Shown: positions 34,082-39,002 of the stretch, piece by piece
Position numbering within the stretch: the first letter of the stretch is position 1
Layout: the number at the start of each line of letters is the position of its first letter
From: Haloplanus sp. CK5-1
GTDB taxonomy: Archaea > Halobacteriota > Halobacteria > Halobacteriales > Haloferacaceae
Reading direction: 5' to 3'
Assembly (NCBI RefSeq): GCF_037201915.1
Contig: NZ_CP147505.1
Span: 1,364,001 to 1,428,000 of the forward strand
Length of the DNA stretch: 64,000 nucleotides
Program-made: the position numbers and the translations under genes
Notes under the pieces: generated by a model
Databases searched by the model: none
Seen by the model: the letters and a program-made list of their open reading frames with translations, nothing else
What the model was told of the DNA's origin: nothing

Positions 34082-35095
34082 TCACGCAAGCGTGTAGATG
34101 TGTTCTTCGTACGTCCGGCGGACGCGGTCCCCCCAGTCGTGGGTGTAGGTGTCGATGACGTCGCTGGCGACGTCGCCACGGAGGTACTTCACGATGCCGC
34201 GGTCGCCGGCCCGGTCCCGGAGGTGGGTGGTGAAGAAGTGACGGAAGTAGTGGGGTGTGACGTTCTCCTCCGCGCCACCGCCCTCGCGGTGCCAGCCACG
34301 CTCGCTCGCGTGGCCCTCGACGATGTGGTGGACGACGTGTGGTGTGACACGTTCGCCCCACCCGTCGCCGGTGCTCACGAAGAGCGGCTCCGCCTGCGAG
34401 ACGGGATCCGGCCGGATCGCCAACCAGCGGACCAGCGACCGTCGCAGTTCCTCGTCGACGGGAATCACCGTCGCCCGCTTGCGCTTGTTCGCCGCCGTCC
34501 GTCGCTCGCCGTCGATCTCGTCGCCGACGGCACGGTCGGCCGCGACGAACAGGGCATTCCCCCGGCCGTCCAGTTGGGGGCGGACCGACACGTCGATTCG
34601 GTCCCGCGTCGTCGGGATCGAGAGGTCTCGGAGATCCAGATTGCACAGTTCACCCACTCGGACGCCGGTTTTGAGCATCGTCAGTAGGAGCGTCCGATCC
34701 AGCGGGTGATCGATCGAAGCGAGGAAGTCGCGCATCTCGGGAATCGATATCTCCCGTCGGGTCGGGTCGGTGTTGATGCGTTCGTCCATCTCTTCGACGA
34801 CGAGCGTCATCGGGTTGGACTCGAAGGTCCCGACCTGTGTCATGTACGCGTAGAACCGGTGGAGGTACGCGGCGTAGGTCGCGACGGTGCTCTCGGCGAC
34901 GGAGTTCCGGAGACGGTGAATCCACGCCATGCAGTCCCTGTGTTCGGCGTTCGCGGGGTCGTCGACGCCGCGCTCCTCGGTGAGGAACGTCTCGAACTCC
35001 CGGAGGACACGCTCGTAGGCCTGCTTGGTCCGGTCGGTCTTGCCGTGGTAGGTCATGTCCTGCAGGAAGTAGCCCACGGGGTCGGCATCGCTCAC
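34082..35095 (-). CDS. Tyrosine recombinase / site-specific integrase
   Basis: A 337-aa XerC/D-type integrase. The N-terminal SAM-like core-binding domain is TKQAYERVLREFETFLTEERGVDD...YAAYLHRFYAYM (about 20-100). The catalytic domain has Arg in KTGVRVGELCNLDLRDL (near 146), His-x-x-Arg in PHYFRHFFTTHLRDRAG (near 283) and nucleophile Tyr in VIDTYTHDW (near 316). The residues needed for strand exchange appear present. The GTG start overlaps the DUF5805 stop (GTGA), so both are translated together. Integrase-DUF5805 pairs are widespread on haloarchaeal chromosomes, so this need not mark a recent element, though neighbouring remnants suggest local mobility. Confidence 0.9.
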   Translation of the reverse strand: MSDADPVGYFLQDMTYHGKTDRTKQAYERVLREFETFLTEERGVDDPANAEHRDCMAWIHRLRNSVAESTVATYAAYLHRFYAYMTQVGTFESNPMTLVVEEMDERINTDPTRREISIPEMRDFLASIDHPLDRTLLLTMLKTGVRVGELCNLDLRDLSIPTTRDRIDVSVRPQLDGRGNALFVAADRAVGDEIDGERRTAANKRKRATVIPVDEELRRSLVRWLAIRPDPVSQAEPLFVSTGDGWGERVTPHVVHHIVEGHASERGWHREGGGAEENVTPHYFRHFFTTHLRDRAGDRGIVKYLRGDVASDVIDTYTHDWGDRVRRTYEEHIYTLA

Positions 35096-35475
35096 GGCTC
35101 CTCCCGCAGAACGTACCCCGTTCTCTCGTGGGTGACGACGTTTCGCTCTTGGAGGGCGTCGAGCGCCGACTCCAGTCGGTCCTCGGTGTCCTCCGTGAAT
35201 CCCTCGACCAGGTCGTCCCACGAACGGCCGTCCTCCGGGTCGAGGAGTTCTTTCACCCGGGGTTCGAGTGCCGAAGTCGGTGCTTTACCGGATTCCTCGG
35301 ATTTCGCCGCTGCGGCCGGTCGCTCGGGCACCTCGAAGTCCCGCCGCCCGGCCTGCACCATCGTCCGGACGAACTCGCTTTGACTCATGCCGAGACGGTC
35401 GGCGTGTTCCCGCCACCGCTCCTTCTGGTACGGTGGGACGTACGTCTTCACCGCGACGCTGTCGTCGTCTCCCAT
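35092..35475 (-). CDS. DUF5805 protein, integrase partner
   Basis: A 127-aa protein with a ribbon-helix-helix-like N-terminus (SVAVKTYVPPYQKERWREHADRLGMSQSEFVRTMVQAGRRDF) and a C-terminal winged-helix-like region (ESALDALQERNVVTHERTGYVLREEP). These features fit the haloarchaeal DUF5805 family. The four-base overlap with the integrase start suggests it works with the recombinase as DNA-binding accessory or regulator, which is inference. It starts at ATG 35475. Confidence 0.8.
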   Translation of the reverse strand: MGDDDSVAVKTYVPPYQKERWREHADRLGMSQSEFVRTMVQAGRRDFEVPERPAAAAKSEESGKAPTSALEPRVKELLDPEDGRSWDDLVEGFTEDTEDRLESALDALQERNVVTHERTGYVLREEP

Positions 35476-36439: not shown

Positions 36440-36873
36440 ATGGTCTCGTTCATGCATGTGCCGGCAGACCGTGACGATTCGATCCTCCGACATACCGACA
36501 ATACTGGGTACGCGATCTTTGCAACGAACCGCGACAGCGTGACGCCAGTTGATGCGGAAGGCTTAGTGAATCGATATTCGGAAAGATGCGACGCTGGGGT
36601 TGAATACAAAATAATCAAGTCGCTGATACCATCGATTGCTTCTACAGACTACCGGATGCGGTTCTTTACGTTCGTGTTCAGCTGCCTGCTGCACAATATG
36701 TGGCGTGTCGTCGATCATTCACTGAAAACACTGGCTAGTGAGCAATTGATGACTACGGCCGCGGGCCACACGAAGACCGGCTCGAGACGGTCCTCCCGTT
36801 GGCGGATTTTCTCGCATCCTCAGTCATCTTGATTTTCCGGGATACGTGGGATCCGCTTGACGACCTGGCCTAA
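36440..36873 (+). pseudogene. Transposase C-terminal remnant (ISH-type)
   Basis: The open frame from 36440 encodes the end of a haloarchaeal DDE transposase: GYAIFATNRDSVTP, YSERCDAGVEYKIIKSLIPSIASTDYRMRFFTFVFSCLLHNMWRVVDHSL, the conserved last-helix region of ISH3/ISH8-like elements. The expected RWxIE glutamate region is degenerate (YSERCDAGVEYK). After LASEQL a frameshift near 36755 moves the coding sequence into another frame (LPLADFLASSVILIFRDTWDPLDDLA, stop 36871). The N-terminal catalytic Asp residues are absent. Base composition is much lower in GC than neighbours. No intact inverted repeats were found. Confidence 0.78.
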
Positions 36874-37218
36874 CAATTCGGCATATGCTTCTGAATCGGT
36901 AGCGCCAGCTGTCTTCTGAAATCGTATTTTTGTTTCTTATATCAATTTTATGACTAATGTGGCGTCCATGAACGCCTAACGTCGTCCCGGATACTGTCGA
37001 GATCGTGAATCAACCAGAATATCGGGCGGATTGTTTGTAGTCCAGCCTATCCTCCGAACCCATGGTTCATCGAACGGAGACCCCGCGTTCGTAGGCTGCC
37101 TGCGTTGAGGGACCAGACGCGTTCGCCGGTGGGCGCAATCGTCTCGATCCCTGGTCCCTTTTGACAGAAGCTGACAATCCCCATCCGAGATATATCCCCG
37201 CAAGACCGTGGTCGTGGT
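36874..37218. other. Intergenic AT-rich region, no gene seen
   Basis: About 345 bases following the transposase remnant, AT-rich at 36890-36965 (for example TTTGTTTCTTATATCAATTT) and closer to local average afterwards. Short frames have no coding character. It contains the upstream region of the HiPIP gene. A TATA-like GATATATCC near 37188 lies about 30 bases before its start. Confidence 0.5.
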
Positions 37219-38028
37219 ATGAGATCACCCGACAAGACACGGCGCAGATTCATTCAGGTGACGAGCAGTACCACACTCGTCGGACTCGCGGGATGTACGG
37301 GAGGCGGGGATACCGACGGGAGTCAGCCCGACACGGAGGCGGATACCGAACAGACGGAGGCACCGTCGGACGAGGAGGGCGAGGAGGGCGACCAACACGA
37401 GGAGGAACTCCCGGATGGAGTCTCCGAGGAAGAGTTCGAACAGGGGCCAGTCCCACAGGTCTACCAGTCCTCAGTGTCCCTGGGCGGTGAGGATCGACAG
37501 GGCGACAACCTCACCCCGAAGGCGGACGTACAGTTCTCGGAATTCGACGAGGCACGGGAACGAGACGCACACCAGCCGGGCACCTGCTGTGCAAACTGTG
37601 CGGACTTCATTCCGGACAAAAACGGCGACACGTTCGGTGCCTGTGCGGAGGTCCACGGCTACATCGACGGGGCGGACTGGTGTACGGTGTACGAATCATT
37701 GCCGGAACCCTCGGTCCCCGAGGGCATGAACGAAGACGAGCTAGCCACGGCCGAGGTTCCGGACGAGTATCGAACGGCATCCTCGCAGGGGGGAGAGGAA
37801 CGCGTTCTCGAGGAGTTGCTCACACACGAAGAAGTGAGCCTGACAGAATCGGTCGAAGCGATAGCCGACGGGATGGCACAACCGGGACAGTCCTGCGGGA
37901 ACTGTGCCGAGTTCATCCCGGACAAAAATGGAGACGGATGGGGCGCTTGTGCGAAAGTCGAAGGATACATCGCGATCGAAGACTGGTGTAGCCTCTGGGA
38001 GCACGTCAGCGCAGAGCACGAGGAGTAA
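37219..38028 (+). CDS. Tat lipoprotein with two HiPIP iron-sulfur domains
   Basis: A 269-aa exported protein. The N-terminus KTRRRFIQVTSSTTLVGLAGC is a Tat signal ending in a lipobox Cys (about residue 26), followed by an acidic Glu/Asp linker. Two high-potential iron-sulfur domains follow. The first has CCANC (122-126), GAC near 141 and DWC near 154. The second has SCGNC near 225, GAC and DWC near 255. Each includes the shared FIPDKNGD segment. Each domain should carry one 4Fe-4S cluster at high potential. HiPIPs are electron carriers, and a tandem pair on one lipid anchor suggests a short electron wire on the cell surface. It is upstream of the ApbE cluster. Confidence 0.85.
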   Translation: MRSPDKTRRRFIQVTSSTTLVGLAGCTGGGDTDGSQPDTEADTEQTEAPSDEEGEEGDQHEEELPDGVSEEEFEQGPVPQVYQSSVSLGGEDRQGDNLTPKADVQFSEFDEARERDAHQPGTCCANCADFIPDKNGDTFGACAEVHGYIDGADWCTVYESLPEPSVPEGMNEDELATAEVPDEYRTASSQGGEERVLEELLTHEEVSLTESVEAIADGMAQPGQSCGNCAEFIPDKNGDGWGACAKVEGYIAIEDWCSLWEHVSAEHEE

Positions 38029-38060: not shown

Positions 38061-38342
38061 CTACGTTGCGGGGCGGCCATTTATCGAGAGGTAGAGCACG
38101 ACGAATCCGAGCATAAACACGAACGACTCGATGGCGTGTATTTCGGAGAGTGTGAGCGGGACCACCCGCAGTAGGAACGATTCGATGCCGAGTCCGGCTC
38201 CGAGAATGGCGAATCCGATCATGGTATACTGGAACGTCTCCTCAGCGGTCCGTCGATACGCCCGGTAACTCGTGGCCGTGATACTGAGAGAGAGGAGAAC
38301 CGCCACGATCCGGCTGAGAAGGAGGATCGAATCTATGAGCAT
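38061..38342 (-). CDS. Small three-helix membrane protein (DUF7521-like)
   Basis: A 93-aa integral membrane protein with three hydrophobic helices (ILLLSRIVAVLLSLSITATSY, YTMIGFAILGAGLGIESFLLRVV, IESFVFMLGFVVLYLSING) and an RAYRRTAEET loop. It follows the winged-helix gene by ten bases, so both form an operon. A second, divergent copy of the same pair lies at 41066-41878. The family commonly neighbours HTH regulators in haloarchaea; function unknown. It may be a membrane sensor or tether for the regulator, by inference. Confidence 0.75.
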   Translation of the reverse strand: MLIDSILLLSRIVAVLLSLSITATSYRAYRRTAEETFQYTMIGFAILGAGLGIESFLLRVVPLTLSEIHAIESFVFMLGFVVLYLSINGRPAT

Positions 38343-38352
38343 GTGTGGAGTG

Positions 38353-38700
38353 TCATTCCTGTAACTCGTCCCAAATGCTGATGAACTGGTCGACGTCGTC
38401 GTCGTCTCTCTGCACGGCGATATCTACGTCTTTCGAGTCGGGGTGGATACTGATATCGATCTCGTTGATGGTCGAAACGTACACCGTGTACGGGCCTTGC
38501 TCTCCCGGGCGTGTCATCGTAGAAACGAGATCGGCATCCTCGAGAGCCTCGAGGCGACGATAGACCGTCTTTAACGAGGTCTCGCACCGTTCGTGTATGT
38601 CCTGGGCTGACCGGGGACTGTCCGAGACGAGACCGAATATCTCACGCGCCGTTTCGTCTGCGAGGACGCTGAACAGCCGGTCTGTCTGTATGCTGTCCAT
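38353..38700 (-). CDS. ArsR-like winged-helix regulator
   Basis: A 115-aa DNA-binding protein. The winged helix is LADETAREIFGLVSDSPRSAQDIHERCETSLKTVYRRLEALEDADLVSTMTR, ending in a beta wing (YTVYVSTINEIDISI). It starts at ATG 38700, divergent from the ApbE cluster that begins near 39003, and 5' to the small membrane protein. A local regulator of the flanking redox genes is plausible, by position only. Confidence 0.85.
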   Translation of the reverse strand: MDSIQTDRLFSVLADETAREIFGLVSDSPRSAQDIHERCETSLKTVYRRLEALEDADLVSTMTRPGEQGPYTVYVSTINEIDISIHPDSKDVDIAVQRDDDDVDQFISIWDELQE

Positions 38701-39002
38701 AATTTTTACCAGGCATATTGACACGGATCCACATACGTTTTGCGTACGTTCCCCTATCGGCCGTCGGCAACGACGCCCACGAGGCGGGCGATACCGGAGT
38801 CCACGGCCGGGACCACGTCTTCGTGACGAACGCTCCCCAGTCCGTGCGTCTCGGACGAGATCGGCCAACATCGAATCGATTCGATAGCTGTACGAAGATT
38901 CGAAGGTTGGACGCGAACGGATTAACGGGGCCGTCTCCATCCGCCATTTGCAATGGCAGAACGCAACGACCGACACGTCGAAGGCGGCGATTCTACAGCG
39001 GG
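38701..39002. promoter_or_regulatory. Divergent control region between HTH gene and ApbE cluster
   Basis: About 300 bases between two outward-facing transcription units. The plus-strand frame is open through it, but its translation is Arg/His-rich and unlike the acidic product downstream, so I treat it as non-coding. CAATATGCC (minus, near 38715-38723) is a weak TATA candidate for the regulator. A/T content is low elsewhere. Confidence 0.45.

Follow-up and report, generated by a model that had tools for sequence, protein, structure and literature searches.

The double HiPIP gene and its surroundings

The window (the whole 64,000-nucleotide stretch of DNA that was analysed) belongs to a haloarchaeal genome of 3.24 Mb in a single contig. 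An open frame of 269 amino acids plus a stop codon lies at positions 37219-38028 on the + strand, with coordinates and strand confirmed; the frame itself, its match to the Pfam HIPIP family (PF01355) and its homologues identify it as the gene for a protein with two HiPIP domains (hereafter the double HiPIP, with domains D1 and D2). A TATA-box-like element (gatatatc, 37189-37196, + strand) was read from the sequence approximately 27 nt 5' of the ATG, and comparable AT-rich elements were seen at roughly equal distance 5' of the chosen ATG in several homologues. The position of this element suggests a single-gene leaderless transcript.

The protein starts with a twin-arginine motif, RRRF (residues 8-11; 37240-37251, + strand), and a lipobox, LAGC (residues 23-26; 37285-37296, + strand), whose Cys26 is predicted to be lipid-modified; both motifs were read from the sequence, and R8 and R9 as well as G25 and C26 were invariant in 24/24 homologues. 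These are followed by an acidic tether (residues 27-66; 37297-37416, + strand) that has 17 Asp or Glu and no Lys or Arg and varies in length among homologues.

A phage-integrase-family recombinase is encoded at 34085-35221 (- strand), 2 kb upstream of the double HiPIP gene, and the 64-kb window holds no tRNA gene. The 130-aa frame at 36440-36832 (+ strand) had no Pfam match; its relatives, at up to 59% identity, occurred on 142 haloarchaeal plasmid records, and among those listed they were named hypothetical or DUF4365. The frame may be a piece of a mobile-element gene. Genes for a DUF7521 protein (38064-38342, - strand) and an HTH_20/ArsR-like regulator (38356-38910, - strand) follow downstream in the opposite orientation.

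Identification of the two HiPIP domains

The whole protein matched PF01355 with an E value of 3e-10, in two stretches. D1 (residues 66-158; 37414-37692, + strand) passed marginally when tested alone (22.4 bits against a cut-off of 22), and D2 (residues 181-260; 37759-37998, + strand) passed clearly with 29.2 bits against the same cut-off. The cysteine pattern C-x2-C-x12-GAC-x12-C was present in both domains, with the ligands at Cys124, 127, 142 and 155 in D1 and at Cys226, 229, 244 and 257 in D2; the original prediction had put them at about residues 122-154 and 225-255, one or two residues off. The best match of D2 among solved HiPIPs was 3h31, which we take to be the HiPIP of Rhodothermus marinus (E 1.5e-6, all four ligand cysteines in register); D1 aligned more weakly with the same structure (E 0.0023).

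The four-cysteine ligand set of a HiPIP was kept in 24/24 double homologues, and the four ligands of D1, together with the adjoining Gly140 and Gly147, were invariant in all of them. A chance cysteine pattern was ruled out by the 24 full-length homologues and the profile scores. With each domain passing PF01355 alone, and with RRRF and LAGC present, the original prediction of a Tat lipoprotein with two HiPIP domains was confirmed. The AlphaFold models were of very low confidence, with a pLDDT of 34 for the 204-residue two-domain part (three sequences) and of 41 for D2 (six rows).

The loop between the second and third ligands

Both domains carry an acidic loop, DKNGD in D1 (residues 133-137; 37615-37629, + strand; a DxNxD(G) motif) and DKNGDG in D2 (residues 235-240; 37921-37938, + strand). 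The original prediction had noted a FIPDKNGD signature at each site; it does occur in both domains, but it is not special to the double form and is shared by nearly all sampled haloarchaeal HiPIPs. The general pattern across 126 haloarchaeal HiPIP domains was C-x2-C-x12-G[AGT]C-x12-C, with a conserved D-x-N/D-x-D-G spacing between the second and third ligand cysteines: the first Asp was found in 123/126 domains, Asn or Asp in 119/126, the next Asp in 123/126 and the following Gly in 83/126. These counts are not independent, because 62 of the 126 domains come from a single clade, made up of the double proteins and the single-domain forms most closely related to them; the same loop is present in the 64 domains that fall elsewhere in the tree. 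It was absent from five solved HiPIPs in the printed alignments of the listed matches.

The haloarchaeal loop resembles the DxNxDG calcium loop, and possible calcium binding is at this point no more than a lead. No Pfam match to EF-hand, dockerin or Excalibur was obtained with the protein up to an E value of 1. Salt adaptation would also favor acidic loops.

Distribution of the double form

HiPIP domains were found in 84 of 391 haloarchaeal genomes. Full-length double homologues were present in 24 of the 391 (own copy included), spread over three families and with Halolamina pelagica and Natronomonas aquatica among the carriers; apart from the own copy, they were 63-73% identical to the window protein. 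In a phylum sample of 393 genomes, every match with an intact frame fell within the window's own order, and the sole match outside it (G525) was a short stretch interrupted by two stops. A search of viral contigs returned no relatives of the double HiPIP. PLSDB plasmids yielded nothing close to the double form; the only matches were below 60% identity and, where annotated, were HiPIP or NosL.

The two-domain HiPIP family is thus real and conserved. The original prediction had called for a search for double HiPIP proteins, and the layout proved recurrent (24/391 genomes and three independent doubles), while no earlier account of it turned up. Descriptions of haloarchaeal or tandem HiPIPs were not found in open-access papers, a scope that leaves out most subscription journals and makes this weak evidence. 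Judged by the open-access papers that were searched, the double layout is new; the HiPIP itself is a known kind of protein.

Domain arrangement and origin

According to the original prediction, a long acidic linker joins the two domains. This had to be rejected, because the coordinates place the acidic residues 27-66 N-terminal of D1, between it and the lipid anchor. The true linker has 22 residues only (159-180; 37693-37758, + strand). Among the 24 homologues, conservation of the tether was approximately 48% over residues 27-62, with gaps, whereas residues 66-260 aligned without a gap in 24/24. The linker was 82% conserved, about equal to the cluster cores, and the distance from the first ligand of D1 to the first ligand of D2 was exactly 102 residues in every one of the 24. 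This fixed spacing and the conserved, gap-free linker suggest a defined two-cluster arrangement. Alternatively, the linker might be conserved as a surface for a partner and not for a fixed interface between D1 and D2.

A tree was built from the 126 haloarchaeal HiPIP domains, without candidate L136, which departed from the haloarchaeal pattern; the finer branching of this tree is limited by the small number of columns. All 24 D1 copies fell into one clade (support 100/93) and all 24 D2 copies into another (99/98), so a single old duplication gave rise to the family before it spread, and its copies have not been homogenised since. Seven alignment columns separated D1 from D2 almost perfectly. 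Three residues before the third ligand, D1 has Phe (Phe139) and D2 has Trp (Trp241), in 24/24 each. The residue directly before the first ligand is an extra cysteine in D1 (Cys123; 37585-37587, + strand; 23/24) and Ser225 in D2 (24/24). Such fixed differences suggest that the two sites have become specialised.

A separate tandem HiPIP was found in three genomes of genus g7 (L088, L089 and L090), with spacings of 114-119 residues. It arose by a recent separate duplication of a single-domain protein, and sister species keep the single form. The two g7 domains are nearly identical; in L088 both core motifs are identical.

Neighboring genes and candidate partners

No neighboring gene of the double HiPIP loci was conserved between most genera, that is, outside closely related genomes, which fits a stand-alone carrier. 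For co-occurrence, the 24 genomes with the gene were compared with 42 without it, hand-picked from the same genera. The copper nitrite reductase NirK was present in 16/24 genomes with the gene and 29/42 without (p 1.0), showing no association, and cytochrome b of complex III in 16/24 and 24/42, respectively (p 0.6), with no significant difference. The presence of the double HiPIP was patchy and unrelated to either protein, and in view of these results and the lack of a conserved operon, no partner is supported.

The same genome encodes a second, single-domain HiPIP lipoprotein (L001, G000:C1:2679544-2679681). Eight haloarchaeal HiPIPs were fused to NosL (PF05573; L003, L018, L022, L026, L099, L100, L114 and L131). 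On two Haloarcula plasmids (L138 and L142), a NosL-annotated frame overlaps the HiPIP match and adjoins nos-type or SCO, TusA, DsrE and TauE genes. The fused proteins may act in copper-site maturation or for nitrous oxide reductase.

Discussion

The double HiPIP is probably a di-cluster, lipid-anchored one-electron carrier with its two clusters in fixed position. The protein would fold and take up its clusters in the cytoplasm, leave by the Tat route and be anchored through Cys26 at the outer face of the membrane, a location predicted from its twin-arginine and lipobox motifs. The tether, acidic and probably flexible, would then carry both HiPIP domains, each presumably occupied by one [4Fe-4S] cluster and fixed in position relative to the other. 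From its membership of the HiPIP family we infer that its most likely function is to carry single electrons, tethered to the membrane, between membrane or exoplasmic redox enzymes. The two diverged clusters could store two electrons or pass them from one to the other. The original idea of a two-cluster wire is plausible; direct transfer between D1 and D2 is speculative, as is the identity of any partner.

HiPIPs are generally known as small carriers with a single cluster. The single-domain 3h31 of R. marinus has the same four-cysteine pattern and is homologous at the level of the domain (D2, E 1.5e-6), and the work of a HiPIP in the R. marinus respiratory chain parallels the role proposed here. 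However, 3h31 has one domain and no second cluster in fixed register, and the DxNxDG loop is absent from the aligned solved sequences. The single-domain haloarchaeal HiPIP lipoproteins, such as L001, share both the C-x2-C-x12-G[AGT]C-x12-C pattern and the loop, and L001 likewise begins with Tat-like and lipobox-like motifs, but they have a single domain and stand on a separate branch of the tree. The g7 tandem also has two domains after a similar leader; it differs in its recent separate duplication, its near-identical domains, its spacing of 114-119 and the lack of the extra cysteine. Two [4Fe-4S] clusters occur on one chain of HiPIP-like fold in the small subunit of 4-hydroxyphenylacetate decarboxylase (2y8n_B, 2YAJ; PMC12358834). 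That protein, in contrast, has approximately 86 residues and is a subunit of a glycyl radical enzyme, and comparison with such small subunits gave a PDB match at chance level (E 1.1) and an NCBIfam score of 15.4 bits against a cut-off of 50. Halocyanin, presumed to be a lipid-anchored one-electron carrier of haloarchaea, parallels the proposed role; it is a blue copper protein, whereas the double HiPIP had no cupredoxin match in Pfam.

Two independent domains, like beads on a string, might simply put more carrier at the membrane locally, and electrons would not pass between the clusters. Elsewhere single-domain HiPIPs are the rule, and the separate g7 double, with its near-identical domains, indicates by its spacings of 114-119 that a duplicated domain need not be held in a set geometry. 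The main family, however, holds the spacing at exactly 102 in 24/24, conserves the linker without gaps and has D1 and D2 diverged in fixed ways; we consider independent domains rather unlikely, though worth keeping in mind. The protein could also be dedicated to a single enzyme, for example nitrous oxide reductase or a sulfur-oxidising system, as its electron donor or in metal maturation, and not be a general carrier; the eight NosL fusions and the plasmid HiPIPs adjoining nos, SCO, TusA and DsrE genes speak for this. Such a function is improbable for the double HiPIPs, which form a different clade without a NosL domain, have no conserved neighbors outside closely related genomes and show no link to NirK.

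Least probable of all is that D1 is degenerate or structural and that only D2 holds a cluster. The score of D1 barely exceeds the cut-off (22.4 versus 22 bits), Phe takes the place of the Trp seen in D2 and in some bacterial HiPIPs, and the extra Cys123 adjoins a ligand, but the four ligand cysteines with Gly140 and Gly147 are invariant in 24/24 homologues. A bolder scheme, in which specialised clusters in fixed contact pass electrons, the loops bind calcium beside each cluster and Cys123 joins two chains into a surface wire of four clusters, is a long shot.

A HiPIP of R. marinus, to which the nearest solved structure belongs, receives electrons from alternative complex III (PMC5928083), in line with the di-cluster carrier that we favor. 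In the passages of PMC8305020 on haloarchaeal electron flow, halocyanin is presumed to stand in for cytochrome c in haloarchaea, the flow in those lacking complex III is called unresolved, and HiPIP does not appear. The double HiPIP suggests a carrier for haloarchaeal respiration, a part presumed to be played by halocyanin, and its conserved form would offer a simple natural system for electron transfer between two high-potential clusters at a fixed distance.
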